NCBI GenBank assembly: GCA_025924495.1
Contig: JAICIG010000023.1
Span: 1 to 31,559, forward strand
Origin: Pirellulales bacterium
Lineage (GTDB): Bacteria > Planctomycetota > Planctomycetia > Pirellulales > JAICIG01
Reading direction: 5' to 3'
DNA: 31,559 nt
The position numbers and the translations under genes are program-made. Of the stretch, positions 15,005 through 29,978 are shown one piece after another. The notes below the pieces were generated by a model. The model worked only from the letters and a program-made list of their open reading frames with translations, was not told the DNA's origin and made no database searches. Position 1 is the first letter of the stretch. Each line of letters opens with the position of its first letter.

Positions 15005-15007
15005 AGG

Positions 15008-15367: not shown

Positions 15368-15431
15368 ATTGCTTCGATGACCTGCGTTGGCCCAAATGCT
15401 CTAATGACTAATACGCGGATCGCCGGCAAAA
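15368..15431 (+). repeat. Left arm of 64-bp inverted repeat
   Basis: Pairs with 15635-15698 on the opposite strand at 60 of 64 positions. The inner 45 bases (15387-15431 against 15635-15679) are a perfect match. The arms bracket a 203-base spacer with a decayed TraG fragment. No target duplication was recognised outside the arms. Confidence 0.9.
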
Positions 15432-15481
15432 CCTTCGCCGCGGCCGTGCAAGAAGTTGCCGCCACCGCCCAGGCGGAAAAA

Positions 15482-15598
15482 CGCGAGCGGGAGAAGATGG
15501 TAAGCAACTGCGGCGTAGTTGAGACTTCGGACCTTCTCGCGCAGTTGATGGCTAGAATGTTTCCCCAACCGATCGGCTTTTCGCGTACGAGCTCTTGA
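15482..15598 (+). pseudogene. Fragment of a TraG/VirD4-like gene inside the inverted repeat
   Basis: A short reading (VSNCGVVETSDLLAQLMARM...IGF) aligns with the intact downstream TraG-like protein around VNNCGVIQAF...LMALMISQLIGL, and the similarity is also clear at DNA level (the run from 15500 to 15597 against ~16870-16968). It has no ATPase motifs, ends at TGA 15596-15598, and is only about 35 codons of homology. It is a remnant of a second TraG-type gene, or a partial copy, captured between the inverted-repeat arms. Confidence 0.7.
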
Positions 15599-15634
15599 AG
15601 ACGGCGCGCAAGCAAAACAAGACAACGGCAAAGA

Positions 15635-15698
15635 TTTTGCCGGCGATCCGCGTATTAGTCATTAGAGCATTTGGGCCAAAGCAGGTCGTTCAAGCAAT
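15635..15698 (-). repeat. Right arm of 64-bp inverted repeat
   Basis: The reverse complement of 15368-15431 with four mismatches, all in the outer third of the arm. It lies 120 bases upstream of the TraG-like gene. Transcribed as RNA, the pair could form a very long hairpin with a ~200-base loop. Confidence 0.9.
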
Positions 15699-15818
15699 AA
15701 GGAACGCCCGACTTCATGGGCGCTTGACGCGCCGCGACCGACCATCGGGCAACCTTTCGATTGGCTGACATCGAATTAAGCGTTCGGCATCTCCACCTTT
15801 TATCGCGGCAATCCTCGC

Positions 15819-17120
15819 ATGATTTACAGCGCGCGACAAGCGCCGACGACGGGCGGCATTCTTCTGGGCTACCGGCAACAGCCCAAAGCTCCGACAGGTT
15901 TTGCGGTTCGCGAATCAAGCAATTGCACGTCGGGCGAGCCCATCTTTTACGACGGCGATGGACACTTGCTCACAATTGCGCCAACCGGCGCGGGCAAGGG
16001 GGTGAGCGTCGCTGTGCCGGCACTGCTCGAGTACCCCGGGCCGATCGTGGCAATGGACCTCAAACCAGAACTTGCCGCCATCACGGCTCGCAGGCGCCGC
16101 GCGATGGGCCACCGCGTCGTCTGTATCGCGCCTTTCGTCCCGGGAAGCGACGGCTTGAATCCTTTCGATTTGTGGAAGCTTCCGGGCGCTCAGATCGATG
16201 TCGATTCCGAGGTGCTCGCAGCGGCGCTCTCGGTCGGCCGTCGCTTCGGGACCGACCCCTACTGGAGCGACTCGGCGAACGGCCTTATCGCGGGACTGAT
16301 TGCCCATGTCGCCACCAGTGCTCCGATGGAAAAGCGTAACTTGAATGAAGTCCGCCGATGGCTATTCGCCGACGATCTCGATTACGATCTAGCCGTCTCG
16401 CTCGATAATAAAACGGTCGTAAACAACATGGCGCGAGAAAAATTCGTCGCCTACTTGACGGCCCCTTCTGATCGGACACGCCCGTGCATTCGATCGACTG
16501 CAATGTCGCACCTCGACACGTTGGGCAGCAAATCGATACAGTCGACACTTGAACGTTCAACCTTCGATCTCCAAGACATCGTCGCCGGCGCGGATATCGA
16601 CGTCTTTTTCATGCTGCCTGCAGATCGCCTGGAAAGTCATGCGGCAGTGATGCGACTTTACCTGAGCACGATCTTAACGGCCATCATTCGTCGCCCGTCG
16701 ATCCCTCGCCAACGCACGTTGCTACTAGTCGATGAAGCCGGGCAGTTGGGCGGCCTGGATGCGTTGCGCCAGGCGATAACGCTTTTTCGCGGAGCCGGGC
16801 TGACCGCATGGCTATTTTTTCAGGACGTCAGTCAGATTCGCCGCAATTTCGAGCGTGACTGGGAAACGATTGTGAACAACTGTGGCGTAATTCAGGCGTT
16901 CGGCATTCACTCGCACTTGATGGCTCTCATGATTTCCCAGCTGATCGGTTTGCCTCCGCGCGAGCTTATGAATATGGCGCCCAACCAGCAAGCGTTGTCA
17001 ATTCACCGCCAAGGAGCGTTCGTGTGTCATAAATTAAACTACCGTCGCGACCCGCGGTTCGCAGGTCTCTTTGACGATAACCCGCGATACGCGCAGGTCG
17101 ATGAAACCGGCATCCGTTGA
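15819..17120 (+). CDS. TraG/VirD4-family (type IV coupling-like) ATPase, short, no membrane anchor
   Basis: A 433-residue ATPase with Walker A IAPTGAGKG (~53-61), MDLKPEL shortly after, and Walker B TLLLVDEAGQ (~300) followed by GGLDALRQAITLFRGAGL and WETIVNNCGV, the typical TraG/TraD C-terminal core. VirD4 proteins usually have 550-700 residues and two N-terminal membrane helices; here these are missing. No relaxase, mating-pair genes or origin of transfer were seen nearby, so conjugation is unlikely. Stand-alone members are common in planctomycete-like genomes. The start has no strong ribosome site. It lies upstream of the Ter-type array in the same direction but 111 bases from the next gene. 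Its role here is unknown; DNA pumping or translocation is the family activity. Confidence 0.88.
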   Translation: MIYSARQAPTTGGILLGYRQQPKAPTGFAVRESSNCTSGEPIFYDGDGHLLTIAPTGAGKGVSVAVPALLEYPGPIVAMDLKPELAAITARRRRAMGHRVVCIAPFVPGSDGLNPFDLWKLPGAQIDVDSEVLAAALSVGRRFGTDPYWSDSANGLIAGLIAHVATSAPMEKRNLNEVRRWLFADDLDYDLAVSLDNKTVVNNMAREKFVAYLTAPSDRTRPCIRSTAMSHLDTLGSKSIQSTLERSTFDLQDIVAGADIDVFFMLPADRLESHAAVMRLYLSTILTAIIRRPSIPRQRTLLLVDEAGQLGGLDALRQAITLFRGAGLTAWLFFQDVSQIRRNFERDWETIVNNCGVIQAFGIHSHLMALMISQLIGLPPRELMNMAPNQQALSIHRQGAFVCHKLNYRRDPRFAGLFDDNPRYAQVDETGIR

Positions 17121-17218
17121 GCGAGCCGTTTCGATGGCGGTGTCGGCCGCGAGACGGCAAAGAGGCAAGAAACTCGCAAGTAACTGCGGCCATACCTAAA
17201 CGAGTATCACTGTAAAAC

Positions 17219-17378
17219 AGGAGGCTTCTGAGTGGTACCAAGCAATATATTCTGGATATTTTTACTTGCCTTGTCGGTCGTTTTTTGTGAGCTACCTCCG
17301 AGGTTGCGAGGGATTGATTGCGAATTTGATGAGGCTACAATGGCGCCCAAGCCCTATGGGGGGTGTCGGCTATTTTAG
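17219..17378 (+). CDS. Small secreted or membrane peptide, 48 aa, with strong ribosome site
   Basis: A GTG start at 17232 is preceded by a perfect AGGAGG at 17219-17224 with 7-base spacing; the reading runs to TAG 17376-17378. The 48-residue product begins with a hydrophobic stretch, IFWIFLLALSVVFC (residues ~6-19), like a signal peptide or single membrane helix. A small polar tail with three Cys in total follows. The coordinates given include the ribosome site. No family is recognised. It is the first possible gene ahead of the Ter-type array. The ribosome site is the main support, so moderate confidence. Confidence 0.5.
17314..17341 (+). promoter_or_regulatory. Candidate promoter of the TerY-P array
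   Basis: TTGATT (17314-17319), a 16-base spacer and TACAAT (17336-17341, 5 of 6 to consensus), about 120 bases before the zinc-ribbon gene at 17462. It lies inside the proposed 48-residue peptide gene. Pattern match only. Confidence 0.35.
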
Positions 17379-17461
17379 TATCCGATGGGAAAACCAGCGA
17401 TGCTGACCTAAGAACTTCGCCTGTATTCGAAGCCAATAAATCTGACCCGTGAGAGAATTCC

Positions 17462-17623
17462 ATGTCCTATGGAACAGGAATTGTCGGTTGCCCTCATTGT
17501 GGGACTGTCGGCACCTATAAGATCACGATGCAGAATGGTGGGCAAGTGATATGCTGCGTCAATTGTCGAAAAAACATGACGGCCGAAGTAAAACAGGGCC
17601 AATTCACCGGCCGGGCTCGATAA
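17462..17623 (+). CDS. Tiny zinc-ribbon protein, 53 aa
   Basis: ATG 17462 follows GAGAG with 6-base spacing and the reading ends at TAA 17621-17623. The 53-residue product has two CxxC knuckles (CPHC at 10-13, CVNC at 32-35, preceded by another Cys) separated by a short beta-hairpin-like stretch, the layout of a single zinc ribbon. It heads the TerY-like gene by 124 bases. Its function is unknown; such ribbons commonly act as nucleic-acid or protein-binding adaptors. The other proteins of this array also carry zinc ribbons, which supports membership of the same system. Confidence 0.7.
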   Translation: MSYGTGIVGCPHCGTVGTYKITMQNGGQVICCVNCRKNMTAEVKQGQFTGRAR

Positions 17624-17747
17624 GAATGATCCCCACGAGCCCAAAGCGCTGGGAACAGTTCAAATGCTTGATCGCCTCGCGTTTACAGTAACTTCGTCAA
17701 TCCTTACCTAATTACTGCATTACTGCCGTGGAAAGGAATGCGACCCC

Positions 17748-18449
17748 ATGGGAAACCGCCCGGGTGGTGAGTTGGCCAAACGGCCGCTGCAATTCATTTG
17801 GCTTGTGGATTGTTCGGGCTCGATGCAAGGTAAGAAGATCGAGTCGGTGAACTTCGCGATTCGAGAGGCCATCAAGCCAATGCAGGACGTGGCCAAGGAG
17901 AACCCAAACGCGCAGGTTCTCGTCCGCGCCATGAAGTTTTCGGATGGCGCACAGTGGCATGTGTCTCAGCCTACGGACATTCACGACTTTAAGTGGACTG
18001 ACTTGAGCGCGGATGGCGTGACGGATATGGGGCATGCAATGGTCGACGTAGCCAAAGCGCTCGATGTGAAGAACATGCCGGAGCGAGGACTGCCCCCGGT
18101 ATTGGTTCTGCTTTCTGATGGACAGCCAACGGACGACTTCAATTCCGGATTGAAGGCTTTGATGGACCAGCCGTGGGGCAAAAAGGCAGTTCGAATCGCC
18201 ATCGCTATTGGAGATGATGCCGACGACGACGTGTTGCGAAAATTCATCGGGAACCTGGAGGTCCCTCCTCTCCGAGCGGCGAACGCCCCCGATCTCGTGA
18301 AGAAGATCAAATGGGCGTCTACTGTACCTTTAAAAGCAGCCTCGAATCCTGCTAGCCGAACCAAGGATCAGCCCGATACCGGTCACGTGCCGATTCCTGC
18401 CCCGCCACAAGACACAGCATCGCCGACGACGCCAAACGATTCTTGGTAA
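17748..18449 (+). CDS. TerY-like VWA-domain protein
   Basis: A 233-residue protein, mostly one von Willebrand A domain (~12-195), with a complete metal-binding MIDAS set: D21, S23, S25 (DCSGS), T92 (GVTDMG) and D124 (LLSDGQPTDD). A proline/threonine-rich tail follows. Classical TerY proteins carry a C-terminal zinc domain (TerY-C) on the same chain; here that domain is encoded separately at 21435. VWA plus the following PP2C and kinase genes is the TerY-P (TerY phosphorylation) triad described in Ter-type stress systems and reported as an anti-phage module. The start follows GGAAAGGA. It likely acts as a metal-dependent scaffold whose state is set by phosphorylation. Confidence 0.88.
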   Translation: MGNRPGGELAKRPLQFIWLVDCSGSMQGKKIESVNFAIREAIKPMQDVAKENPNAQVLVRAMKFSDGAQWHVSQPTDIHDFKWTDLSADGVTDMGHAMVDVAKALDVKNMPERGLPPVLVLLSDGQPTDDFNSGLKALMDQPWGKKAVRIAIAIGDDADDDVLRKFIGNLEVPPLRAANAPDLVKKIKWASTVPLKAASNPASRTKDQPDTGHVPIPAPPQDTASPTTPNDSW

Positions 18450-18477
18450 CCGAAAGCCGTGGCGTTAAGGAATTACT

Positions 18478-19986
18478 ATGCCGACGGTACCTAAGGACTA
18501 CAAATGGGGCGTACTTGGCCATAGCCAATTAGGCGCATCTCATGTACGGCAGGGGCTGCCAAATCAAGATGCAATTCGGTATTACAACTTGCCTGACGGC
18601 TCTTGTCCGGTTGTGGTCGCGGTCGCCGACGGTCATGGGAGCGCAAAGAGCTTTCGCAGCCACGTTGGCGCAGCGATTGCTGCAGAGACCGCTGTCCAAG
18701 TGTGCTTAGAGTTCCTCGAAGGAACGGGCGACGCTCCGCCTTCAGCCGTTAAGAATGCTGCCGAGCAGCACATTCCTGCGCGCATCTTCCAGGCTTGGAA
18801 GCGCCGTGTCGCGGAGCATCACGCGAGGAATCCATTTACCACGGAGGAATTAAATCGACTTGCGGAGCAAAGCGGCGCGGCAGATCGGGATCGTATGGCG
18901 CGCGCGGAGCGGCCACAGCTGGCATATGGGTCAACGCTTTTAACTGCCTTCTTGACCAACGAATACCTGATGGCGTTTCAACTTGGCGACGGCGACATAT
19001 TGGCGGTTTCAGACTCCACCGGCGAGGTGGGATATGTGATTCCTAAGGACGAGTCACTCATCGCAAATGAGACAACGTCGTTGTGCCAGGATGATGCCCA
19101 TAAATACGTCCGGTGCAGATTTCAGTTATTTCAAGGCCGCCCGCCAGGGCTCGTGATGCTGTCTACTGACGGCTATGCGAACTCATTTGCGACAGCCCCG
19201 GATTTTCTGAAAGCGGGGACTGATTATCTCGACATGCTTCAAAGTGAAGGCAAGAACTCGCTTCAGAAGAACCTTCCCGAATGGCTAGAAGAAGCATCCC
19301 GCCAGGGAAGTGGGGACGATATCACATTGGGCATGATCTATCGCATTACGCCGCCATTTGCCACGCACACAACTGAGACGCAAAGCGATGTAACATGCTC
19401 TGACGAAAGCAAGACGCCGCCAACAGGCGTATTTGCTGCAAATGAATCTTCTGTGCCTGCGCCCTCGGGTGATTCCGGGAGTTCAACCCTTGAGAGAGCC
19501 ACGGCAGAATCGCAGATATTCCCGCTTACGGCTCCGCAATCGTCGCACAGTTCTTCACACCTAACGGCCGCCCCAGCGCAAAACCCCATTCTCACTGAAC
19601 GTCCCATAGGTCAAGGCGACTGCGGCTCGGCTCTGTCGCAAGGTGCTCCCTCGATCGGTTCCGTGAGCGAATCCGGCGCATTAGGCTCGAGCCTCCCCTC
19701 GGCATTCGAAGATGTGGGGCTTTCTCGCGAACGCTTGCCATTGAAGGATCGGCAATCGGATGCGCCGTTCTGCGAGGTCGAGCCATTTCAAGAAGTCATT
19801 CCGGAGACACCACACGATGCCCCGAGTCTGACCGACTCGCGCATCGAACCAAAGCCAACGGAGTCTGCGGACGATGCGGCATGTTCTAGCCATGTAGGAG
19901 CCTGCGCTCAACTAGATAAAGCGGCGCTTCCAGATCGCAGTACTTGGAAAGACTTCTTGCGAGTTATCACGAGGAGTAAGAAGTAG
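18478..19986 (+). CDS. PP2C-family Ser/Thr phosphatase of the TerY-P triad
   Basis: A 502-residue protein. The PP2C catalytic domain (~10-285) shows the metal-binding motifs NQDA (D31), VADGHGS (D51/G52), a central GSTLLTAFL...FQLGDGD, STDGYANS (~228) and GSGDDITLG (~276-284), so it should be active with Mn/Mg. Residues ~286-502 are a low-complexity Ser/Thr/Pro/Glu-rich tail without domains, a plausible target for the adjacent kinase. AAGGA lies 7-8 bases before the ATG and 28 bases separate it from the VWA gene. Predicted role: reversing the kinase-driven phosphorylation within the triad. Confidence 0.92.
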   Translation: MPTVPKDYKWGVLGHSQLGASHVRQGLPNQDAIRYYNLPDGSCPVVVAVADGHGSAKSFRSHVGAAIAAETAVQVCLEFLEGTGDAPPSAVKNAAEQHIPARIFQAWKRRVAEHHARNPFTTEELNRLAEQSGAADRDRMARAERPQLAYGSTLLTAFLTNEYLMAFQLGDGDILAVSDSTGEVGYVIPKDESLIANETTSLCQDDAHKYVRCRFQLFQGRPPGLVMLSTDGYANSFATAPDFLKAGTDYLDMLQSEGKNSLQKNLPEWLEEASRQGSGDDITLGMIYRITPPFATHTTETQSDVTCSDESKTPPTGVFAANESSVPAPSGDSGSSTLERATAESQIFPLTAPQSSHSSSHLTAAPAQNPILTERPIGQGDCGSALSQGAPSIGSVSESGALGSSLPSAFEDVGLSRERLPLKDRQSDAPFCEVEPFQEVIPETPHDAPSLTDSRIEPKPTESADDAACSSHVGACAQLDKAALPDRSTWKDFLRVITRSKK

Positions 19987-20047
19987 CCGACCAGTATTGC
20001 TGTGAACGCACCGGAGGCGGGTCACACGTTCCCGTGAGGATGGTTCC

Positions 20048-21391
20048 GTGAATGAACTGCTAAAGCCTGGCCAAGTTGTACAGACTAAGTTCTCTGGCCA
20101 GCCCTGCCAGGTTGAGAAGTTTCTCGGTGGCGGTGGCCAGGGGGAAGTCTATGGTGCGAAATGGTCCGGCACTTCTTTTGCGCTGAAGTGGTATTTCCTA
20201 AACACTGCTACCGAAGACCAGCGAGAGGCGCTCGAAGCGCTTGTAAAGGAATCTCCTCCAAGCAATGCATTCCTGTGGCCGCTTGATATGGCGTACGCTA
20301 ACGGCGTGCCTGGGTTCGGTTACATCATGCGGTTGCGAGAGCCGCGTTATAAGGGGTTGCTGGATTTGGTCACTAATCGAATCGATCCTAAATTCCGCGA
20401 ATTAGTAACGGTGGGACTGGCTCTTGCTGACAACTTCTACAAACTGCATGCGAAGGGTTTGTGCTATCGCGACATTTCGTTTGGAAACGCTTTCTTTGAT
20501 CCGAACACCGGAGAAGTGCTGATCTGCGACAACGACAACGTCACGGAAAATCGTTCGCCGAAGGTTAGCGTCCTCGGCACGCCCGACTTCATGGCGCCAG
20601 AAATTGTTCGTCGCGAAGCGCTGCCGAGTAGACAGACGGACTTGTACTCGTTAGCGGTCCTATTGTTTTATATCTTCCACATTCAACATCCTCTGGTCGG
20701 CAAGAGGATCCTGGCGATCAAAAGTTGGGATCTAGCATCACGTACAAAACTGCTCGGTACGGATCCGTTATTCATTTTCGATCCACATGACAAGTCAAAC
20801 GAGGCCGTGAATCGGTCGGTGGATGCACTCGGAGAGGCCGGCGCAAATGCGCTAGTCTACTGGCCCATTTTTCCACAACTCCTTCGCGACACATTCACGC
20901 ATACGTTTACCGTGGGGCTCAGAGATCCTGAGCACGGACGAGTCACAGAGGGTGAGTGGCGTAGGGTACTGTCTCAGCTTCGCGACTCGATCTTTTATTG
21001 TGCATCGTGCGGAGCTGAGAATTTCTACGACCCTATTGTCATCAAGACCTCCAGCGGACAATCGGGGAAATGCTGGTCTTGTAAAAAGGAACTGCGCTTG
21101 CCGTTTCGAATTCGTCTCGGCAAGTCGATCGTTATGTTGACGCATGAGGGCAAGCTTTTCCCACACCACCTCGATCCATCGAAAGACTTTGACTTTACAA
21201 AGCCTTGGGCGGAAGTCACGGCTCATCCTTCAGACCCGAGCATTTGGGGTTTGAAGAACTGTAGCGGAGAGAAGTGGGTGGCCACTATGCCGGATAATAG
21301 CGTGAAGGACATCGAGCCAGGGCGTAGCGTCCGGCTCGCCGATAAGGCGAAAGTCAACTTTGGCAAAGTCGAAGGCGAAATCCGTTACTAA
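20048..21391 (+). CDS. Ser/Thr protein kinase of the TerY-P triad with zinc ribbon and C-terminal FHA-like region
   Basis: A 447-residue kinase starting with GTG after GTGAGGA. N-lobe: glycine loop LGGGGQGEV (~26-34) and lysine in FALKWY (K47). Catalytic loop YRDISFGN (R141-D142, N147; the usual His of HRD is Tyr). The DFG position reads DND (161-163), which keeps the metal-binding Asp, and APE is present (184-186). A zinc ribbon, CASCG...CWSCKKE, follows at ~317-345, and then a ~90-residue beta-rich region resembling a degenerate FHA domain. The visible residues predict an active kinase. Genes for VWA, phosphatase, kinase and TerY-C follow each other with small gaps, so these products probably form one regulatory unit. 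Confidence 0.9.
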   Translation: MNELLKPGQVVQTKFSGQPCQVEKFLGGGGQGEVYGAKWSGTSFALKWYFLNTATEDQREALEALVKESPPSNAFLWPLDMAYANGVPGFGYIMRLREPRYKGLLDLVTNRIDPKFRELVTVGLALADNFYKLHAKGLCYRDISFGNAFFDPNTGEVLICDNDNVTENRSPKVSVLGTPDFMAPEIVRREALPSRQTDLYSLAVLLFYIFHIQHPLVGKRILAIKSWDLASRTKLLGTDPLFIFDPHDKSNEAVNRSVDALGEAGANALVYWPIFPQLLRDTFTHTFTVGLRDPEHGRVTEGEWRRVLSQLRDSIFYCASCGAENFYDPIVIKTSSGQSGKCWSCKKELRLPFRIRLGKSIVMLTHEGKLFPHHLDPSKDFDFTKPWAEVTAHPSDPSIWGLKNCSGEKWVATMPDNSVKDIEPGRSVRLADKAKVNFGKVEGEIRY

Positions 21392-21434
21392 TATGTCGCG
21401 AACGAACAATTGATGAACTGAGAGACCCGTGGTC

Positions 21435-21785
21435 ATGCGGAATATCGTGATCGTAATGGGCCGATGCAGCCAGTCGAAACGACCGTTTGGCATCCGTTTT
21501 GAGCGCCACGGCTCAGACCACTGGGGTGCGACGTGGGCCTTCGCAATAAAAGACGCCGTCGCGAAGAAAGAAGGCTATGAGAAGACGCGCATGGAGGGCC
21601 GGTTTTCGTTCGACGACTGTTTTCCGGGCTGCCCGCATTGTGCGACCCACCACTTCTTCGTTTGTGCGTGCGGGAGACTTTCCTGCATGAAGGCTGAGCG
21701 CGGACAAGTGACGTGCCCTTGGTGCGGCGAATGCGGCGAAGTGAGCGGGCAAGCTACGAGCATGGATGGCGGAGGCGACCGGTAA
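21435..21785 (+). CDS. Stand-alone TerY-C zinc-binding domain protein
   Basis: A protein of about 116 residues. ATG 21435 is favoured because GAGAG lies 10 bases upstream; GTG 21429 is the alternative. Its signature is a cysteine-rich stretch, CPHCATHHFFVCACGRLSC...CPWCG, with paired knuckles and an FFVCxCGxLSC core, as in the TerY-C domain (PF15616). That domain normally sits at the C-terminus of TerY itself. Here it is split off as its own gene, two genes after the VWA protein. It overlaps the following reading frame slightly, or lies 28 bases before the preferred start of the next gene. Likely a zinc-dependent adaptor of the triad. Confidence 0.8.
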   Translation: MRNIVIVMGRCSQSKRPFGIRFERHGSDHWGATWAFAIKDAVAKKEGYEKTRMEGRFSFDDCFPGCPHCATHHFFVCACGRLSCMKAERGQVTCPWCGECGEVSGQATSMDGGGDR

Positions 21786-21813
21786 GAGTAATGTAGGATC
21801 TCGAGAATATGAA

Positions 21814-22992
21814 ATGCAGGACATCCCGCGCCAAAAATTGGTTGAGATCATCGCTCGTTTTGGTCCGCAACTATGCGATGATCCAAAACGCTGCGAGGGG
21901 CTGCTTCGAGACTACTGCGGCGAGCACAACCGGGAAATCACCATCCTCGTGGCTGCCATTCGTGAAGGGGTGACTTTCGAACTCAGGGGGTCGCAAGGCA
22001 CGATTCCCCATGACGTGCTGCTAGAACGCTGCGCGCAGCGGCTGCGAAGCAACGTCGGAGTGGTTCCCCACCTGGCACGTTGGAGCGTCGAAACGTGGGC
22101 CTTGGCCTTAGGCGTGCTTACGCCGAACGAACTGACGAATCTCTTCCGCTGCCCGTCTTGTGGTGCGGCCGGGAACAGCGCTATGCCAATCGCTGGCAAA
22201 TCCATCAAGTGTCCCAAATGCAAAGCGAGGGTGCGGGTCTCTGACGATGGCCGCCAATTCGCCCTGGAAACCAAGAGTATTGCCGACGCAACTTCTGCAG
22301 CCACAGTTATCGGCACGTCGCAGTTGCACGACCCGTTTGCCGAGGCGACCGACCCCCGCGGGCAGCTTCGGCAGGCGCTTCGCCAGATTATGGCCGACGG
22401 GGTGATAACGGAGGTGGAAAAAGTGCAGATTCAGAATCTGCGCGAGTCGCTCGGGATTTCTTCTAAAGAGGCCCAGCAAATCTTCGCTCAGATTAAAGCT
22501 GAATCTGTGCCCAAGAGCGTTCCTGTTGCGACGACAGTTCCCGTACAGAGCCCTTCCCCACAAGCCATTTCCGTTGCGTCACCCGTTTCGACAATTCCCT
22601 TTGCCGTAGTGTCACAGCCACGGACCACGCTGAAGTCGGAAATCCAACAACGTGTTAGCGCTCCGTCGCTTGGACTAATTGTCATCGGAATTCTAGGCGC
22701 TCTTCTCTGCGCGGTGGGAACATTAGGCGCTATGGTCGCCGAGACCCCCAGGTCCACTGCTGGTTCAAGCAAAGCGCCGATCGTCGCTGTTTATTTTTTG
22801 GGAAGCCTTGTTCAGTGCTTCGTTGCCTTCGCTGGGTTCCAGATGAAGAATCTGAGGAATCGCCAAGCCGCATTTGCAGGAAGCATTCTTGCAATGTTGC
22901 CATGCTCTGCCTGCTGCGTATTTGGTCTTCCGATTGGGATCTGGTCGCTTACAGTTCTGAACAATTCAGACGTAAAGCAGGCTTTTCGCTGA
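21814..22992 (+). CDS. Zinc-ribbon membrane protein with TerB/EF-hand-like segment
   Basis: A 392-residue protein. I choose ATG 21814 because the homologous broken copy at 23033 starts at the same point; ATG 21766 is an in-frame alternative that would overlap the previous gene. Order: a helical N-terminal domain (1-105, starting DIPRQKLVEIIARFGPQL) that recurs in the neighbouring gene; a zinc ribbon (C113, C116, C133, C136); a helical acidic segment, LRQIMADGVITEVEK (~189-203), resembling TerB or an EF-hand-type unit; a Pro/Ser/Val linker; and three membrane helices (~285-308, 322-342, 355-381). It is probably a membrane-anchored sensor or adaptor with a cytoplasmic head. The enzyme motifs I know are absent. 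Confidence 0.8.
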   Translation: MQDIPRQKLVEIIARFGPQLCDDPKRCEGLLRDYCGEHNREITILVAAIREGVTFELRGSQGTIPHDVLLERCAQRLRSNVGVVPHLARWSVETWALALGVLTPNELTNLFRCPSCGAAGNSAMPIAGKSIKCPKCKARVRVSDDGRQFALETKSIADATSAATVIGTSQLHDPFAEATDPRGQLRQALRQIMADGVITEVEKVQIQNLRESLGISSKEAQQIFAQIKAESVPKSVPVATTVPVQSPSPQAISVASPVSTIPFAVVSQPRTTLKSEIQQRVSAPSLGLIVIGILGALLCAVGTLGAMVAETPRSTAGSSKAPIVAVYFLGSLVQCFVAFAGFQMKNLRNRQAAFAGSILAMLPCSACCVFGLPIGIWSLTVLNNSDVKQAFR

Positions 22993-23032
22993 AATCGACA
23001 GTTAATTGCACGGGGAAATGAGATGGAAGACA

Positions 23033-23100
23033 TCCCATGCCAGAAAGTGATTGAGATCATCGCTCGCTTCGGGCCGTAACTGTGCGACAAGCCATATCAT
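23033..23100 (+). pseudogene. Broken 5' copy of the zinc-ribbon membrane protein gene
   Basis: From ATG 23033 the reading MEDIPCQKVIEIIARFGP matches the start of the upstream protein (MQDIPRQKLVEIIARFGP), then hits TAA where the parent has CAA (Gln). Similarity resumes as LCDKP and ends near 23100. It is a tandem duplicate truncated after about 23 codons, with a nonsense change. The following ~190 bases up to the next gene hold nothing I recognise. Confidence 0.85.
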
Positions 23101-23290
23101 CGCGATCGCGGCAGTACGGGATTAATCATATCGAGCGTGTAGAGTCAGGGCGTGGGCCAAGCAATGGGACAAGCGGAGCTCTGTCTCATGAGCGGCGCTG
23201 AGGTAAAATAGCGACGCGCTCCGCAAGAAGGTTTTCCAACTGTACGTTCCTCTGGATCCGCTGCACGATGTTCGTCAAGGGCTGCTTAGA

Positions 23291-24424
23291 GTGAAGATCG
23301 ATATGAACGACCAGGCACGGAAGGCGCTCGTTGAAATAGTTGCGACCTACGGCCCACAGTTATTTGGAGAGGAGTGGAGAAAGTGCCAAGGGCTGCTGCA
23401 AGATAAGTGCCGGCGGGCAGGGCGCGAAATCAACGCCTTAGTCACCGCCGCTCGGGAGGCACAAGTCTTAAAATCCGACCCGGCTGTTGCGGTGAAAGGT
23501 CATATCAACCGAGTTGCGGAGTTGCTATTTAAGAAATTCGGTATAGACCACGCGCTTGCGCTGTGGGCGGCCGAGACGTGGGCTCTTGCTTTGGGTGACA
23601 TTAGCGAGTTTGAGCTCTCTTTTCCTTTTTCATGTCCAAAGTGCGCATCAGAAACGCGCGGGGCGTCGCATTGGCGAGGACGGGTAGTGGTGTGTCCCGC
23701 TTGCAAATCACAAATCGCAGTCGCGGAGAATGGTGGCGCGTCGATCCTCAGTGCTCCATCGAGCACGGTCGTTCCATCCCGAGTGAACTGGTGGATGGTA
23801 GTCGATGAGGAGCAACCGGACTCAATCCACGGAATTCGGCTCGCCGAGGCGATCCAACGAGTTCTTGCCAATGACTCCCTCACACCTCACGAAAAGGCGA
23901 ACCAACTTGACTTCCAACGGACGCTAGCGGTACTGCCGGATATTGCAGCCGATCTTTTGGAGATCTCTGGGCCGAAGCTCAGCAATTGTGAGCCGCTGAT
24001 CCTCGGTATCTTGCGCGGCGCCGGGGAAGAAGCTGGTCTTACCATTGAGCCCAATGTGCCAGTTAAGAAAGCCGACCGGCTTCGTCGGATTGTCTCCATG
24101 CCGCTTGCCGAAAACATCTTAGCGGTCATTGATGGACAGCTTTTCGAGCCCGACGAGTCTGGTGTCATTTTCGGCGCCGAACGAGTTTATTTCCGAAATC
24201 CCCCAATCAGTTCGCGACCAGGCTCCGCCAGCGTACCCTACGCGGAGTTTCCGAGGCGCGAGTTCTCCTCACACAGTCTTCAAGAACTACAACTCGGGCG
24301 CGGCGACATTCTTGACTTACGCGGCACGGGCATAAGCAAGCGGGCCATGCTCGGCATTCTGAAGAGCATAAAACATGTACTTGTCAGTATCGGCTGGGAA
24401 GAAACCGACAGTCACAGTTCTTAG
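23291..24424 (+). CDS. Paralogous zinc-ribbon protein with C-terminal PH-like region
   Basis: A 377-residue protein whose first ~145 residues are a paralogue of the 21814 protein: a helical domain (ALVEIVATYGPQLFG...LWAAETWALALGD) and a zinc ribbon (C115, C118, C135, C138). The remainder differs: a helical middle (~170-260), then a beta-rich region (~265-370) containing ILAVIDGQLFEPDESGVIF and a closing helix (AMLGILKSIKHVLV), reminiscent of bacterial PH-like folds. No membrane helices. GTG 23291 follows AAGGG by 9 bases; ATG 23303 is an alternative. It is probably a soluble partner using the shared N-terminal domain for homotypic contact with its membrane-bound sibling (inference). Confidence 0.8.
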   Translation: MKIDMNDQARKALVEIVATYGPQLFGEEWRKCQGLLQDKCRRAGREINALVTAAREAQVLKSDPAVAVKGHINRVAELLFKKFGIDHALALWAAETWALALGDISEFELSFPFSCPKCASETRGASHWRGRVVVCPACKSQIAVAENGGASILSAPSSTVVPSRVNWWMVVDEEQPDSIHGIRLAEAIQRVLANDSLTPHEKANQLDFQRTLAVLPDIAADLLEISGPKLSNCEPLILGILRGAGEEAGLTIEPNVPVKKADRLRRIVSMPLAENILAVIDGQLFEPDESGVIFGAERVYFRNPPISSRPGSASVPYAEFPRREFSSHSLQELQLGRGDILDLRGTGISKRAMLGILKSIKHVLVSIGWEETDSHSS

Positions 24425-24586
24425 GCCGGCGCACGCATTCATTGGGGGAACTGTGCTCCGTGCATGCCCTTTTGCTGATCCCTCTCGCGACAATTTGTGT
24501 TCTCAAGCGAACTGCAGGCAACTAAAATCGTCGACGGTGCGATGTCGCCGCGATAACCGGTTCCAAGAAAGGGCAGCGTTGCTCGC

Positions 24587-26821
24587 ATGTGGATGATCCT
24601 TACCGCAATTTTGAGCCACCCCATCGCGTTAGGGATTGCCGGCTCATTTGCTGGTCTTCAATTTTACACCGCCATAAGGCTGAAGCGTTGCCTCCGCCGG
24701 CAAATTGCCATCGCCGAGTCGCTACGTTGCCGCGGCGCTATTGCTGATGCCGTACTTTACGAGCGTAGTTGGTTTCATTGGGCCTCGCGCAGCTTTCCGC
24801 CGGACCGCGCCCCGGTTCTATCGCGGGAAGACGCGCTGAAGGAATGTGATCGGCGATTAGCGGATGAGTTGGACTACGCACGGCTTCAGCGTCTCGCGGT
24901 TGGCGCACCGCTCATTGGCGTGTTAATCACTGCGTTTGGGTTTCTTAATCCTCCTGCGATCACCCAGACGGAGACGCTCAGTGAGATATTCACCGCGGTG
25001 ACGCCGTTGATTCTGGGCGTCGCATACGGAGCCGTTCTGGCGTTGCTAAATCAATTCTTGCTGTATCGGAGCGAGCGAAGTATCGACGATCTGCGATCGC
25101 AGGCGCGGGCTTGGTTTGACGAAATGGTTTGGCTCCCACACGGGAACGAAGCGGATGAAGACCGCTTGGGCGATTCGATGCGCAACCTCGCCGATGAGTT
25201 GAGCCACCAATTCCGGGCGGTGGAATCCGCGGCAAATATTCTCGCGAAAACGGGCAGCGCGCTCGAACGATGCCTTGCCGACTTTTCGTCCAAAGTCGAG
25301 CCATTGCCGTCGTCGCTGACTCTTTTCAAGAGCGCCAGTGATGCGACTACGGCGGCATTCAAGCAGCTAGTGCCAGCGGGGACTCAGCTCGGCGCACTTT
25401 TCGAACGGGCTGTATTGCAGTTTAAAGAAACCATCGATGCCGGCTTCTCTAACGTGGTGAAGCAACAAGAAGAAGCAAGCAGCCGATTGGTCCATGCAGC
25501 CACGCGAACACATGACGTGATACTCAAGATGGAGCAAGCGGCCTCCGCCATCGAGATCAACAGCCGCTTGCAGCAGGAGGCGGCCCATCAATTCCATCAG
25601 TCGATCGACAACTGCATCATCCCACATCAGCAGCTAGTGCTTGAGGCGCTACAGCGCATCGACTCACTCACGAGCGGATTATTATCCACAATGGAAGCGT
25701 TAGATAGATCGCTAACCCAGTTTGTCGGTCAATCGGCTGGTTTGTTCGCGGCTGCAGACTCCAGCTTCCAGCAGTTTGCTACAGCAGCCGGGAACCTCCA
25801 GGGAGCGGTTGAGACGCAGTTCGAACCGGCCGCCCAACTGCACCGCGCGGTCTTGGCGGGGATTGCCTCAACGGCCGACCGAACAGAGAAGTCAGTGGAA
25901 AAGCTCCTGGATGCCTGCGGCTCGCTTGGCACTGCGGCGCTGGACCAGGCGGCGGCGAGTCGCGAATTGACCAAGTGCGTCGATTCCAACCTTACGCCGG
26001 CGCATGCTTTATTAACTCGCGCCGCGACGCATTTCGACAACATCGCTGAAGAGCTCGCCGAACACGTCGATCGGCTGCGTTCCTCATTGGGCGGCGCCGC
26101 CACGAGCCTCAATGCGTTGCTGCCATTAGCGAAGCAGGCGTTCAATGAAATGCCAAACGCCGTCTCTGACTTTCGCGATGTCGTCACTGGGCAGTTTAAA
26201 CCGGCCGCGCAGCTTCATGCGGAGGTCGTTGAAAGGATTGGCGGCGGCGTAGACGGTTTCAATAATCTGGTAGCTGGGCTACTGGGAGCAACGGCCGAGC
26301 TAACCAGAATCGTTGACGGTCAAGCTAGTGCGGCCAATGCTTTTCAGCCTGCGTGCGATGCCGTGCGGGCTGCAGCAGTCGATTTGACCCAGCTCGTGGA
26401 TTCGTTGCGGGGCGCAGTTGCTGGCGACGTGCTTCCAGCACAAAAAGAAGTGCACGCTGCGGCAAATTCGTTGCACCGCTCGGCTGAAATGTTGGCCGGC
26501 TTCATCGAGAAAGGAGTGTCTCCGGCCACCCAACGACTAAAGCAGTTGGATCAGACGATTGCGTCATTGAATGCTTTGCTCAATGATATCCGTCCATTGG
26601 GTGCCCTGGGAAGAGAGGCGTCACATTTTCTGGACGGAATTTCCAAGGCAGCTGAGGTTGCGTTGGCTCTTAACGCCCTGCCACGAGAAGTAACGCGATG
26701 TATGAGTCCGCCGATTGATGCCCTGACGTTGGCTGTTAGCGAGTTAGAAAAGAGACTGCGCCAGCCAGTCGGTGAGAATGGTAAGTCGCCGTGGTGGAAT
26801 CCATTTCGTAGCAGTCGATAG
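24587..26821 (+). CDS. MotA/TolQ/ZorA-like proton-channel protein with long coiled-coil tail
   Basis: A 744-residue protein. Three membrane helices: ~8-30; ~103-121 (LAVGAPLIGVLITAFGFLNP); and ~137-160 (AVTPLILGVAYGAVLALLNQFLLYR). The second and third match the MotA/ExbB/TolQ channel pattern, an apLlGllgT-like helix then a long helix leading into the cytoplasm. From ~165 to the end it is a long helical tail with repeated segments, for example QFEPAAQLHRAVLAGI (411) and QFKPAAQLHAEVVERI (536), 125 residues apart. ZorA of the Zorya anti-phage systems has this plan: channel domain plus long intracellular tail. The gene for a matching MotB/ZorB-like protein follows after 35 bases. Inferred role: ion-flow-driven stator subunit whose tail transmits a signal into the cell. 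Confidence 0.82.
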   Translation: MWMILTAILSHPIALGIAGSFAGLQFYTAIRLKRCLRRQIAIAESLRCRGAIADAVLYERSWFHWASRSFPPDRAPVLSREDALKECDRRLADELDYARLQRLAVGAPLIGVLITAFGFLNPPAITQTETLSEIFTAVTPLILGVAYGAVLALLNQFLLYRSERSIDDLRSQARAWFDEMVWLPHGNEADEDRLGDSMRNLADELSHQFRAVESAANILAKTGSALERCLADFSSKVEPLPSSLTLFKSASDATTAAFKQLVPAGTQLGALFERAVLQFKETIDAGFSNVVKQQEEASSRLVHAATRTHDVILKMEQAASAIEINSRLQQEAAHQFHQSIDNCIIPHQQLVLEALQRIDSLTSGLLSTMEALDRSLTQFVGQSAGLFAAADSSFQQFATAAGNLQGAVETQFEPAAQLHRAVLAGIASTADRTEKSVEKLLDACGSLGTAALDQAAASRELTKCVDSNLTPAHALLTRAATHFDNIAEELAEHVDRLRSSLGGAATSLNALLPLAKQAFNEMPNAVSDFRDVVTGQFKPAAQLHAEVVERIGGGVDGFNNLVAGLLGATAELTRIVDGQASAANAFQPACDAVRAAAVDLTQLVDSLRGAVAGDVLPAQKEVHAAANSLHRSAEMLAGFIEKGVSPATQRLKQLDQTIASLNALLNDIRPLGALGREASHFLDGISKAAEVALALNALPREVTRCMSPPIDALTLAVSELEKRLRQPVGENGKSPWWNPFRSSR

Positions 26822-26856
26822 CGCAACCTGTCTGTCCATTAGAGAGTGCAATCAAT

Positions 26857-28029
26857 ATGCCGCTCGATCATCCTACACGGCGTTCACAAGATCAGAGTTC
26901 CGTTGGCTGGATCTCAAATACAGATGCCGTGATGTTTGGCATGGTTGTGTTCTTTGTCGTGGCCGTATTCCTTGATGCAAAGCACCGGCTGCGGCCGAGT
27001 GCGGATGCCGAATGGGAAAGACAGTTGGCGGCAATTACGGCTAAGTTAGAAGAGGTGGAAAGGCGCTTGGCGACCGCCGTCAGCGACCTAGAAGCGACGA
27101 GAGCCAGGGGTGCGAATTGGCAACGAGACGCAGAGGCTGCCGCCGAACGTCTTAAGGTGCTGTTAGCGGAACAAGCCCGGCTCGAGACAACGCTTGCAGT
27201 GCTCTGCAGCGAGAACGACGACCTCAAGAAGATAGAGAAAGCGCTCCAGCAACGTCTCTCGAACGGTTCAAAAGGCTATCATGAACTCCAAGAAAAATAC
27301 AAAGCTGAAAAGGAATCGAACAAAGAGCATCTTGCCGAGCTGAAGGCGCTCACCGAACAGGCGGATGACCTTCGGAGGCAAGCCAACCTGTTCGCAGAAG
27401 AGAACGTTGTAATTCTGGCTGCCTATCTCGAAACTGAATCACGACTCCAGCAAGCCGAATCCAGCGAGAATCGAGTCCGGAGGGAACTGATTGGTCTAAA
27501 GGGCCGTGATGGCAAGCTCAACCGGGTGGTAATCGTTTTCGATGCCTCTCTAAGCATGAAGCAAGGAGGCCGATGGGAAAAGGCGCGATTGGTAATGGAA
27601 GAGTGGCTCAAATGGCTCGACATTGGAAGTGGCGCCTTAGTGGTGTTCAGTACGGGCGTCGCAAGTTATCCGTCGGATGGGTCTCTCTTGTCGCTGACGG
27701 GATCCGGTTCAATAAAGAACCGTGACGAGTTATGTCGTTTTTTGGAAGGGGTGGAACCGGAGGGTGGAACCAACACATTGGCCGCGCTCCAAAAGGCATA
27801 TGCCTACGCCGACCTGGATGCTATTTTGCTGTTCACCGACGGCGCGCCGAATGATGGACATGGGTCGGTTTTCGATCCAAAGGTGGCTGAGAGAATCTAT
27901 TCGCTTTGTAAGTCGCGACCTGACATTCCGATAAATGCAGTTGGTCTCGGTGACTACTTTAAACCCGAACTATCGCAGTTCTTGCTCCGAATAGCGGAAA
28001 TGACAGGTGGAACGTTTGTGGGCCGGTAG
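26857..28029 (+). CDS. MotB/ZorB-like membrane protein with coiled coil and VWA domain
   Basis: A 390-residue protein, ATG preceded by GAGAG. A single membrane helix (~24-40) is directly preceded by an Asp (NTDAVMFGMVVFFVVAVFL, D23), the position of the proton-carrying Asp in MotB, ExbD and ZorB. Then a long coiled coil (~48-215) and a C-terminal VWA domain (222-390) with full MIDAS: D229, S231, S233 (DASLS), T305 (GGTNT) and D328 (FTDGAPND). In MotB/ZorB the C-terminal domain is OmpA-like and grips peptidoglycan; here it is VWA. Topology by analogy puts the coiled coil and VWA in the periplasm; the opposite is possible. It pairs with the preceding channel gene. Confidence 0.85.
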   Translation: MPLDHPTRRSQDQSSVGWISNTDAVMFGMVVFFVVAVFLDAKHRLRPSADAEWERQLAAITAKLEEVERRLATAVSDLEATRARGANWQRDAEAAAERLKVLLAEQARLETTLAVLCSENDDLKKIEKALQQRLSNGSKGYHELQEKYKAEKESNKEHLAELKALTEQADDLRRQANLFAEENVVILAAYLETESRLQQAESSENRVRRELIGLKGRDGKLNRVVIVFDASLSMKQGGRWEKARLVMEEWLKWLDIGSGALVVFSTGVASYPSDGSLLSLTGSGSIKNRDELCRFLEGVEPEGGTNTLAALQKAYAYADLDAILLFTDGAPNDGHGSVFDPKVAERIYSLCKSRPDIPINAVGLGDYFKPELSQFLLRIAEMTGGTFVGR

Positions 28030-28052
28030 CGCTGTACAAACAGGAAGACGCG

Positions 28053-28244
28053 ATGGCGTGGCGATTTCGCTAAAGCTTCAAAATCGGACCGATCCGCGCC
28101 TCACTTGGCAAGCGAGGAGTTGGAGTGAATTGGGGCATACCGGGGCTACGGGTCGGGCGCTCCAGTGATGGCCGTCCTTATCTCTCTCTAGGAATACCAG
28201 GCACCGGAATATCATACGTCCAGCACTTCGGGGCACGTAAGTAA
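28053..28244 (+). pseudogene. DUF4236 gene with nonsense codon at position 7
   Basis: ATG 28053 is preceded by AGGA at 8-base spacing, 23 bases after the previous stop. Translation gives MAWRFR, then TAA, then SFKIGPIRASLGKRGVGV...SLGIPGTGISY, ending at TAA 28242-28244. Apart from the stop this is a classic DUF4236 small protein (MGLRFRKSIKIGPG... and IPGTGLSY ends). One base change (AAA to TAA at codon 7) explains the break. The remaining frame is intact, so the lesion is recent, or is a sequencing error or read-through site. It would be the last gene of the TerY-P/motor array. Confidence 0.85.
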
Positions 28245-28510
28245 GCTGTCGGGAGCAATATTTACCGAATAGGGCCTCTGACTCAGAAGGCATGAGCACA
28301 TTACGATAGCTAAACCGCAAACTTGCCAAAAAGTTTGTGGCGCTTTTTATGCCGCGCAGCTCGGAAAAACTGGTCAATTGAGGCAATCATTCGTCGCTTG
28401 ACGAAACGCAGAAACCCCGTAACATCTAGTAGTTGCTGCAACGGGAGCAACGTAGCGGATGAGTAAGCGTTCGATCTAACCGTCCGTGGCGCGGCGTAAG
28501 CTGCGAGGAG
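28245..28510. other. Intergenic stretch with possible weak terminator
   Basis: No gene recognised. At 28318-28337 a 7-bp stem (CAAACTT/AAGTTTG, loop GCCAAA) is followed by a TTTTT run at 28344-28348, a weak candidate terminator for the array. TTGACG and TAACAT with 16-base spacing at 28398-28425 could be a promoter facing right, but nothing intact follows. Confidence 0.35.
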
Positions 28511-28579
28511 GTGTTTCCTTCTCGAGAGCGGAGAGCCGGCAATGGGACGACGACCGTCGCCATCGCTGGATCAGCTCAC

Positions 28580-28798
28580 GCCTTCTCGCAATACGCGTCG
28601 CCAGTTCAAATTCGACTGGGCACTGCGGAAGAATGGCGAGTTAGGGCGATCGCCGACAATCATCCGTTCCACATCCACGTCAACCCGTTTGAGGTCATGA
28701 TGCGCACTGACGCCGATGGGAATAGCACGCCGATGAACGTCTGGCGCGATACTTTGTTTTTGCGCGGGGGAGAGACGTACGTAGTTCGCAGTCGCTTT
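28580..28798 (+). pseudogene. Fragment of a multicopper oxidase C-terminal cupredoxin domain
   Basis: The reading RLGTAEEWRVRAIADN HPFHIHVNPFEV ... NVWRDTLFLRGGETYVVRSRF is typical of the last cupredoxin domain of multicopper oxidases, with the HxxHxH copper ligands. The usual closing HCHILDHE motif and all earlier domains are missing. After codon RSRF (28798) the same frame runs into transposase-like sequence, so the gene was cut by an insertion and then eroded. It is not functional. Confidence 0.75.
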
Positions 28799-28954
28799 CC
28801 CGAACCGACACGGCGAGGTACCCGGCGCTGGACCGACAAGACGCCAGAACAGCGATCCGCCGTGTATGCCAACCGCCGCCGCATGAAGGGCGACCGAGGG
28901 AAACGTCTGCAACGCCTACGCAGCGAGTTTGTAGAGCGTACGCGTCGGGATTGA
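28799..28954 (+). pseudogene. Transposase C-terminal fragment (IS4/IS1182-like)
   Basis: In frame with the oxidase remnant, RRWTDKTPEQRSAVYANRRRMK...RGKRLQRLRSEFVERT resembles the C-terminal region of IS4/IS5/IS1182-like transposases (a YxNRRRxxGxxGKxLxRxRxExVER pattern). It stops at TGA 28952-28954, before the usual FAH...TGG segment. Only ~50 codons remain. Family assignment is from memory of the pattern. Confidence 0.55.
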
Positions 28955-29344
28955 TGGCGCAGTCCTTCAGTGCGGCGCACAGTGCGCAGGTGCGGCGCTG
29001 TCTGATGAGGCCCTCGGAATGTTGGTGCGCATGGTTTCCGAATGGAACACCGCCTACCCTGGCACCGACAGAATGCGGTGATGATTGTCGACGCGCTAGT
29101 GGAGGCGGCGGAGCGGATCGATCCGCAGTTTGTGTACGAGTATTTCTGGCGCGCTGCCGCCTGCCCAAGTTCTCATTCGGCCGCCGAAGCGGACCGGATT
29201 CAGTCGGGCGCCACCGCTGTTACGACGTCTCCGGCCAGTACCACGGTCGATCACTCGCCGGCTGGGTCGAACCAATCGTCGACGAACGAATCTGTGGCCC
29301 GCAATATTGGCCGCCACGCTGGCCTTCAACGTCCATCTGCTTAG
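28955..29344. other. Degenerate stretch, no convincing gene
   Basis: All frames carry long but composition-poor ORFs. A short run (DALVEAAERIDPQFVYEYFWR, ~29087-29152) looks protein-like but is isolated and unplaced. Probably eroded remnants between two insertion-sequence scars. Confidence 0.4.
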
Positions 29345-29907
29345 TCAAACCCCGATGGGCGGCGGGATCGTCGCTCCGAGCATCCGGGGTGGCTTGCCGA
29401 ACTTCGCGCCATAGGCGATCAATTCATCAATCACTTGTTCGGCGCCGTCCTGCCAGATTTTTTCCGCCCAAGCGTCGTACTGTTTCTCCGCGGCCGCCTC
29501 ATCGCTGCTGATCGCCCGCGCTGCAGCCAGGCAATAAGACAACCCGTGCCTGATTCGATTCACGATGCGAGTCCGCGTTTGACCGGCTTCCTTGCGGAGC
29601 GTCGTCAGTCGCCGGTTCTCCTGATCCGTCGTAGAGGCAATTCCGACTTGCCGCAAGCCGCGGATCGCCTTGCCTTCCAGCAGGCGTTTCCGGTTGACCA
29701 CAACAGTTCGCTCAGCGCGGCGGCGTCGCGTCGATCCGTCTTGCGTTTCGTCCTCTGCTCCGGTTGGATCAGGATCACCTTGTGGCAGCGGTAGTCGCGC
29801 AGCATCCGAATCAACCATTCATTGAAGCCGCAGACTTCCAGCATGGCGACGAACTTCTCGCCGGCCTTCAACCGCTCCATTGCCCACGATCGCTCGTCGC
29901 GCGACAT
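29345..29907 (-). pseudogene. Frameshifted IS110-type transposase remnant joined to a second fragment
   Basis: On the minus strand from ~29907, VCGFNEWLIRMLRDYRCHK...QRTKRKTDRRDAAALSELLW matches the DEDD N-terminal region of IS110-family transposases, including the KTDRRDA motif. At ~29698 one G is missing (TTGTGGTCAAC), shifting the frame; the next frame continues as VNRKRLLEGKAIRGLRQVG...RIVNRIRH. After ~29546 the reading becomes unrelated (DAWAEKIWQDGAEQVIDELIAYG), perhaps another element. The extreme N-terminus and the C-terminal Transposase_20 domain are missing. Dead element, inserted just downstream of the glycosyltransferase gene. Confidence 0.75.
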
Positions 29908-29978
29908 TTCTTCGCCTTTCCTAAAGTAAACTCCGGCTTCACCTGCTCGTCCTGGGAATAGGCTTGCTCTAACTGAGT

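Follow-up and report, generated by a model that had tools for sequence, protein, structure and literature searches.

On contig JAICIG010000023.1 of a Pirellulales bacterium, within a stretch of 31,559 bases (the window), nine open reading frames (ORFs) lie together on the forward strand at positions 17462-28029 and set a TerY-P type triad, consisting of a TerY-like VWA protein, a PP2C phosphatase and a kinase, beside a gene pair that looks like a membrane motor. This composition is real, and the pairing of triad and motor probably is as well. We lean somewhat towards a single system, on the basis of an adaptor domain present in both halves, a second locus known indirectly and one parallel gene run on a Prevotella plasmid; that this system is a membrane machine controlled by a TerY-P switch, with the motor as an output docked through the adaptor domain, we consider a little better than an even bet. 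All the genes that a first-pass annotation of this DNA had named were found in their places on the forward strand (ORF list, Pfam), as follows.

17462..17623, +, small zinc-ribbon protein of 53 residues with two CxxC motifs; may be the first gene of the unit
17748..18449, +, TerY-like VWA protein with the DxSxS motif of a metal ion-dependent adhesion site (MIDAS) (Pfam PF00092, 5e-8; PADLOC TerY, 1.9e-4)
18478..19986, +, PP2C phosphatase with a long C-terminal extension and the motifs DGHG and GDGD (Pfam PP2C_2 PF13672, 2.2e-40)
20048..21391, +, Ser/Thr kinase with a C-terminal zinc ribbon (CASC, CWSC) (Pfam PF00069, 2e-15)
21429..21785, +, stand-alone TerY_C metal-binding protein, a 118-residue ORF of its own (Pfam PF15616, 5.6e-14)
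21766..22992, +, adaptor protein 1: helical adaptor domain, zinc ribbon, helical stretch and three predicted transmembrane (TM) helices
23291..24424, +, adaptor protein 2: helical adaptor domain, LysW-like zinc ribbon and C-terminal part
24587..26821, +, putative ZorA/TolQ-fold motor protein (by fold and profile comparison): three predicted TM helices and a long helical tail
26857..28029, +, TM-tethered vWA motor partner: one TM helix, Asp23, coiled coil and C-terminal VWA with MIDAS (Pfam VWA_2 PF13519, 2.6e-8)
28053..28247, +, DUF4236-like ORF with an in-frame TAA at its 7th codon, directly behind the motor genes
15819..17120, +, VirD4/TraG-type coupling protein, upstream mobile-element context outside the system (Pfam PF02534, 9.7e-47)

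The triad, the adaptor domain and the motor pair

The sequence features expected of a TerY-P triad were all present, namely a TerY-like VWA protein with its MIDAS, a PP2C with both metal-binding motifs and a kinase fused to a zinc ribbon. The kinase kept the motifs GGGGQG, ALK, YRD, DND and APE, and its residues K47, D142, N147 and D161 were identical in all four aligned kinases. Judged by Pfam and by these active-site motifs, the triad is of the TerY-P type, as had been proposed from the letters alone, and the proposed split TerY_C domain was likewise found as a gene of its own, 33% identical to a stand-alone TerY_C on the Prevotella plasmid. The triad was reportedly first described by Anantharaman in 2012 and Gao in 2020.

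The two larger zinc-ribbon proteins, one directly behind TerY_C and the other directly before the ZorA-like gene, turned out to be paralogues as predicted (31% identity over 217 residues, pairwise E 1e-29). What they have in common spans about 215 residues and comprises a helical domain of about 100 residues, which we call the adaptor domain, a zinc ribbon and a short helical stretch. None of eight members tested gave a Pfam match in the adaptor domain at E 0.1; of the effector-associated domains (EADs) discussed below, not all need be in Pfam. In an AlphaFold model of adaptor protein 2, computed from three sequences, the mean confidence was 51.2; the adaptor helices mostly scored 79-89 and the last 174 residues stayed below 50. 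Among the structural matches listed, the zinc ribbon pointed to LysW and the adaptor helices to no clear fold.

In the motor half, the partner protein had been described as MotB/ZorB-like. Its motor Asp fits that description but its other end does not, because Pfam found no OmpA domain there and a VWA domain takes its place. D23 and the MIDAS residues D229, S231, S233, T305 and D328 were invariant in 28/28 aligned relatives and W[IV][SA]xxD was present in 37/37 vWA partners on the tree, where both counts refer to chosen rows: the alignment held 26 of the 36 non-self relatives together with the window and locus L001, ten (P0013, P0018, P0021, P0022, P0024, P0026, P0028 and P0031-P0033) having been left out by eye as short or near-duplicate, and nine tree rows came from loci picked for a match.

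The other motor protein had been read as a MotA/ZorA-like channel with a long tail. The tail was upheld and a kinship in fold and profile is suggested, but a family match was not found: whereas Pfam recognized TerY_C, PP2C and VWA in the window as anticipated, it found no MotA_ExbB in the whole protein at E up to 0.1, nor in residues 1-204 and eight relatives at E up to 1. The AlphaFold model had a mean predicted local distance difference test score (pLDDT) of 60.2, with most blocks of residues 11-180 at 70-88; searched with Foldseek, it matched TolQ best and ZorA at rank 5, none at E 0.001. Comparison with a TolQ profile by hhalign, for which 16/31 candidate loci with an ORF carrying a TolQ-type motif (by regular expression) were kept and 15 dropped, gave a probability of 39% and a P of 3.1e-4, a score that 0/60 local column shuffles reached and that the reversed alignment also missed. 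A sequence search of the PDB with the alignments of both motor proteins was uninformative, returning mostly coiled-coil or designed helical chains, the exception being an inter-alpha-trypsin inhibitor chain over the VWA part (E 7e-6). Fold and profile comparison thus suggest that the ZorA-like protein is akin to TolQ and ZorA, and by predicted fold, conserved residue and gene order the pair looks like a motor of the 5:2 type.

Relatives on other contigs and plasmids

Three relatives of window proteins, P0041 (51% identical to adaptor protein 2), P0002 (58% to the ZorA-like protein) and P0004 (57% to the vWA partner), each lie on a contig whose length is exactly 10,454 bases, and the source is the same for all three. 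The equal length and the single source are strong but indirect evidence that one contig carries all three, and indirectly indicate a second locus in which an adaptor-2 relative and a motor pair share a contig.

For the triad, the window kinase matched 2,334 plasmid records, three of which, from Methylomonas, Prevotella and Nostoc, were covered to at least 80%. The best match among all 72,556 plasmid records was Methylomonas CP157007.1 (46%), where the VWA and PP2C proteins are 62% and 36% identical to those of the window and the triad is followed by five adaptor proteins. Their genes (locus L187, 22894-27430) fuse the domain to Sel1 repeats, Tim44, Clp_N, a ClpX zinc finger or to no known domain, and one of them is preceded by a 94% copy of the end of PP2C (48 residues), which points to tandem duplication. 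This was also the only plasmid record that adaptor protein 1 matched at E up to 0.01. On a planctomycete contig of genome G432 (locus L184), kinase (54%), VWA (60%) and PP2C (47%) are followed by an adaptor protein of 33-44% identity, although the contig end cuts this gene and the genome may be incomplete; upstream of the triad lies what we take to be a recombinase-like ORF. From these sequence comparisons, the adaptor domain is part of this kind of triad.

Elsewhere the domain was scarce. A search of 386 genomes gave 18 matches at 1e-6, of which 17/18 covered the zinc-ribbon half of the model and the G432 protein was a real relative. As in the vWA searches, only four or five candidates were scored per genome, so that misses are possible. 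Three weak matches in TerY-P loci, two of them copies of one gene, covered the zinc ribbon and were set aside. No adaptor relative was found in viral contigs, and no motor or adaptor-2 relative at 1e-5 in plasmids. The Nostoc plasmid locus had genes for a VWA protein and a kinase, but no motor was annotated in it; one phage record matched the kinase, at 26%.

The second-best plasmid for the window kinase (32%) was Prevotella NZ_CP091789.1, where positions 18000-42000 (L189) carry a stand-alone TerY_C, kinase, VWA, PP2C, clients and Zorya II on one strand. Behind PP2C come a 299-residue protein, two unknown ones, a sulfatase-modifying-factor protein, a UvrD/exonuclease, FtsK and a 566-residue TM protein, then zorA2, zorB2, zorE2 and another FtsK; PADLOC identified ZorA2 (5.5e-157), ZorB2 (1.8e-80) and ZorE2 (8.6e-68). 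The annotated zorA start seems too late, judging from an in-frame ATG 3 nucleotides after the stop of the 566-residue gene; with that ATG all gaps from TerY_C to the last FtsK are at most 28 nucleotides, whereas the annotated start leaves 141. A domain on the N-terminal side is common to the 299-residue, sulfatase-factor, FtsK and 566-residue proteins (E 1e-49 to 3e-10, against a profile made from the first two of them plus four relatives in viral records). The 566-residue protein, which directly precedes zorA2, gave a weak match to the adaptor profile of the window (E 0.0068, 5,731 ORFs searched), and hhalign compared the two profiles at P 0.007 and a probability of 5%, with 0/60 shuffles reaching the score. 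Outside its own plasmid this protein found no match.

Among viral-class records, the kinase profile picked out five, and 3/5 (L192, L193 and L195) held kinase, VWA and PP2C together; the other two had TerY_C and kinase at the record end, and a kinase alone. L192 and L193 also carried adaptor-like clients, whose proteins had helped to build the domain profile. A search of viral contigs with the Prevotella ZorB gave no locus. A Spirosoma plasmid, found in a search whose query P0043 lacks its true N-terminus because of an annotated TTG start, had Zorya II-like genes and no annotated triad within 33 kb.

The common adaptor domain and the Prevotella run into zorA2-zorB2-zorE2 are what tie triad and motor together, and to that extent the merger proposed in the first-pass annotation stands, though not as a merger with Zorya. 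More broadly, and more tentatively, the triads of this branch could be multipurpose phospho-switches that are given their output by plug-in proteins, all with one kind of adaptor domain. Methylomonas would have Clp-related and Sel1/Tim44 fusions in this role, Prevotella fusions to sulfatase-modifying-factor-like, FtsK-like and TM parts together with Zorya II, and the window a new stator tipped with vWA.

One machine or neighbouring modules

In the mechanism we favour, a switch of the TerY-P type (kinase, PP2C, TerY-like VWA and TerY_C) would dock exchangeable outputs through small adaptor domains. Here that output would be a motor powered by ions, in which ZorA/TolQ-like subunits with a long tail in the cytoplasm form a pentamer and a vWA protein tethered by its TM helix contributes the motor Asp. 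Adaptor protein 1, anchored by its three TM helices, would hold the triad at the membrane and adaptor protein 2 would bridge it to the motor. Kinase and phosphatase may then set the phosphorylation of the ZorA tail or of the adaptors, and this state would open or lock the motor upon infection or envelope stress, while the periplasmic vWA domain might grip an envelope partner as the peptidoglycan-binding domain of ZorB does. We infer the docking, the phosphorylation target, the stoichiometry, the ion flow, the topology and the role in defence.

Several observations weigh against this mechanism. TerY_C was found in 19/396 genomes of the presumed order Pirellulales and the motor vWA in 17/396, and they shared one genome (G122), on different contigs, where independence predicts 0.8 (17 x 19 / 396); this marker misses triads without TerY_C, such as that of G432. 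The arrangement in the window is rare, and the reference genomes give the linkage no support, which goes part of the way towards the outcome that the first-pass annotation had named as contradicting it, triad and channel pair never being neighbours. When the window proteins were compared by blastp with the surroundings of the motor in 16 of the 17 genomes, over stretches between 3.9 and about 46 kb long, neither PP2C nor TerY_C nor the triad VWA turned up at E 0.01, and a kinase matched only once and weakly (3e-4), in a 4.9-kb contig. G432 gave no motor or TerY_C match, and the 10,454-base contig is matched by its length only. That the Prevotella and window adaptor domains are one domain is suggested by a weak link, and the Prevotella zor genes may simply be a neighbouring defence system. 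The zorB search of the L193 and L195 records gave 0/2, so the motor is at most an optional output. Within the window, gaps of 298 nucleotides before the second adaptor gene and 162 before the ZorA-like gene mean that the motor may be its own transcription unit, and the motor fold comes from a low-confidence model with no Foldseek match at the threshold given above.

The anatomy of the favoured mechanism would also suit a machine for envelope stress or surface force rather than phage defence. Its triad would sense metal or the state of the envelope and would adjust a TolQ/vWA force transducer that works on the cell surface or the outer membrane. In the accessible parts of the papers cited here and below, the closest motor class is proposed to consist of force transducers (PMC12204202) and TerY-P is hypothesised to be a metal-sensing switch (PMC11090510). 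At L060 (G651, 7381-12947), a related genome carries genes for an FHA protein, a MotA_ExbB protein, two vWA proteins and a MoxR ATPase in a row, where the FHA domain may be a sign, by analogy, that such motors are under phospho-control. We nevertheless regard this alternative as rather unlikely: a related triad stands in one gene run with Zorya II, TerY-P has anti-phage activity, and the context is mobile, with VirD4 in the window, the presumed recombinase in G432 and a plasmid in Methylomonas.

In a rival reading, the two halves are independent modules that happen to be neighbours in a mobile island: a self-standing TolQ/vWA envelope motor would have moved in next to a TerY-P type triad for stress or defence and its adaptors. 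The vWA profile reached 17/396 genomes at 1e-25 in the order of G001 (the genome of the first relative), which we take to be Pirellulales, 24/397 at 1e-30 in its class and 87/392 at 1e-15 in its phylum, where most matches covered the VWA part only; motor-protein relatives that bore organism names were Planctomycetota. A ZorA-like gene adjoined the vWA gene in nine of the 16 genomes, with no triad detected there, and TerY_C and motor were on one contig in 0/396. The neighbours of the motor differed by locus: the 35 that were scanned matched 64 Pfam families, none of which was shared by more than two of them, and the 25 of the 64 families listed included neither a kinase nor a PP2C or VWA; the L058 neighbours tested had no Pfam match. 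In a maximum-likelihood tree, the window vWA formed a clade with P0004 and P0005 (100/99), and a different clade, of 19 rows (100/100), took in 8/10 stand-alone rows. The remaining two, L001 and L058, lay elsewhere, the long-branched L058 next to the window clade but weakly supported there. The stand-alone pairs and the tree clades indicate that in other genomes the motor pair stands as a module in its own right, and that the window belongs to a separate branch of it. The stand-alone motor pair of L001, from a metagenome-assembled genome of Thermoguttaceae, shares its contig with a sigma-70 region 4 protein and with proteins that by eye we take to be radical-SAM-like and coiled-coil-like.

The gaps along the nine genes are, in order, 124, 28, 61, 37, -20, 298, 162 and 35 nucleotides, the negative value being the overlap of the gene for adaptor protein 1 with TerY_C; the 298-nucleotide gap between the halves and the VirD4 gene upstream favour two modules. 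Promoters and terminators, which had been expected to tell, were at chance level in 14000-31559 (6 promoter-like sites against 7.7 in shuffles, 22 terminator-like against 20.1) and so speak neither for nor against one unit; the gap before the ZorA-like gene holds one promoter-like match, at 24500-24528. The GC fraction of eight measured unit genes (0.52-0.60) is below that of the genes from 4037 to 14563 (0.61-0.63), which argues against two modules, although other flanking genes (0.58-0.61) are not distinct. Further arguments against are the adaptor domain in both halves, the adaptor-2 and motor-pair relatives each on a 10,454-base contig, the position of the window clade (three rows) apart from that of most stand-alone rows, and the Prevotella precedent; on this evidence we hold two separate modules to be unlikely.

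A new Zorya type, with a ZorA/ZorB motor and the triad replacing the ZorC/D/E effectors, is very improbable, because for all its possibly ZorA-like predicted fold, long tail and weak matches to ZorA models (PADLOC ZorA1, E 0.0041; NCBIfam, 0.0031), the locus matches those models in the coiled tail only, scores 15.9 bits against an NCBIfam ZorA cut-off of 190, has a motor core no nearer ZorA than TolQ/ExbB, matches no zorC/D/E model in PADLOC at E up to 0.1 among nine proteins (eight of the unit and VirD4), and has a second motor gene that ends in VWA and not OmpA; the missing OmpA and the failed ZorA model tests rule out membership.

The window locus and the Prevotella plasmid make it testable that a kinase/phosphatase pair gates a stator, with the adaptor domain as the plug; if true, a Zorya-like defence could be armed in a new way, through a kinase and a phosphatase that control an ion-driven motor. 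The adaptor domain is also a search handle for further TerY-P outputs. To our knowledge, neither the trigger of Zorya-type motors nor the targets of TerY-P kinases have been established, and the literature searched, which most subscription papers lay beyond, held no paper linking TerY-P to Zorya or to a TolQ motor.

Around the unit, VirD4/TraG-type proteins lie near the triad both in the window and in Methylomonas (L187, 29906-33802); they are 32% identical, and the Methylomonas protein also matches MORN repeats. Downstream, the gene called DUF4236 in the first pass, a presumed label, does exist as an ORF from 28053, but with its early stop it is probably decayed and no working part. Beyond it we recognized by eye what we take to be a copper-oxidase-like fragment (28511-28954, +) and two overlapping ORFs presumably resembling pieces of an IS110-type transposase (29345-30186, -), and the right side of the window looks like mobile debris. 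On the left, 4037-6478 encodes a solute-binding protein and ABC permease domains in one 813-residue ORF, followed by a second permease and an ATPase.

Stand-alone TerY_C genes were also seen at L109, L110 and L111, the last two together with multi-TM VWA proteins. These VWA proteins matched ZorB weakly (2e-3 and 3e-3) and were not counted as motors, because they are multi-TM and the L110 protein, read whole, has no W..D motif. L110 also has what we presume to be Hsp70-like proteins, and these three loci probably represent a different system. At L103, the protein at 9553-11310 between two TerY_C genes has a zinc ribbon, a hydrophobic C-terminus and, we presume, ankyrin-like repeats.

Comparison with known systems

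TerY-P has been described as a set of VWA, PP2C and kinase-zinc ribbon proteins that is linked to CoCoNuT systems, and TerY-P-like modules also work as stand-alone anti-phage systems (PMC11090510); in P. aeruginosa, TerY-P protected cells from phages (PMC10889362). The window triad resembles TerY-P, so far as the accessible accounts go, in its TerY-like VWA, its PP2C, its kinase with a C-terminal zinc ribbon and in partner genes that vary by locus. It differs in having TerY_C as a separate gene, and rather than standing alone or beside CoCoNuT nucleases, it is accompanied by adaptor-domain proteins and a membrane motor.

In the adaptor domain, the closest parallel is to the EADs (PMC7159879), which likewise are small helical domains repeated on different client proteins of one system, and the GTPase systems of that paper are also described with kinase, PP2C and vWA sets. 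The adaptor domain has no Pfam match and serves a different core; EADs have one copy fused to a core component, but in the loci searched no kinase, VWA or PP2C matched the adaptor domain significantly. By analogy, it resembles EADs in logic, not in the core-fused copy.

Zorya depends on the Asp of ZorB, on the tail of ZorA and on binding to peptidoglycan (PMC11890865). The window shares with Zorya I/II, as presented in the available text of that paper, a possibly ZorA-like predicted fold, a long tail and an Asp at the start of the partner's TM helix; it differs by a vWA in place of the peptidoglycan-binding domain, by having no ZorC/D/E and by the presence of the triad.

The nearest known class for the motor half was presented in a 2025 paper, which describes TolQ-like genes with TM-tethered vWA partners that carry the proton Asp and have no TolR/ExbD (PMC12204202). 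From what is accessible of that paper, the window pair fits this 'TPH-vWA' class: a TolQ-like subunit adjoins a vWA protein with a TM helix and a conserved Asp, and Pfam found no TolR/ExbD-like gene beside the pair. It departs from the class in having one vWA motor gene rather than a heterologous pair, a pairing that is usual and not strict there, and in its long ZorA-like tail, its planctomycete-like origin and its link to a kinase triad.

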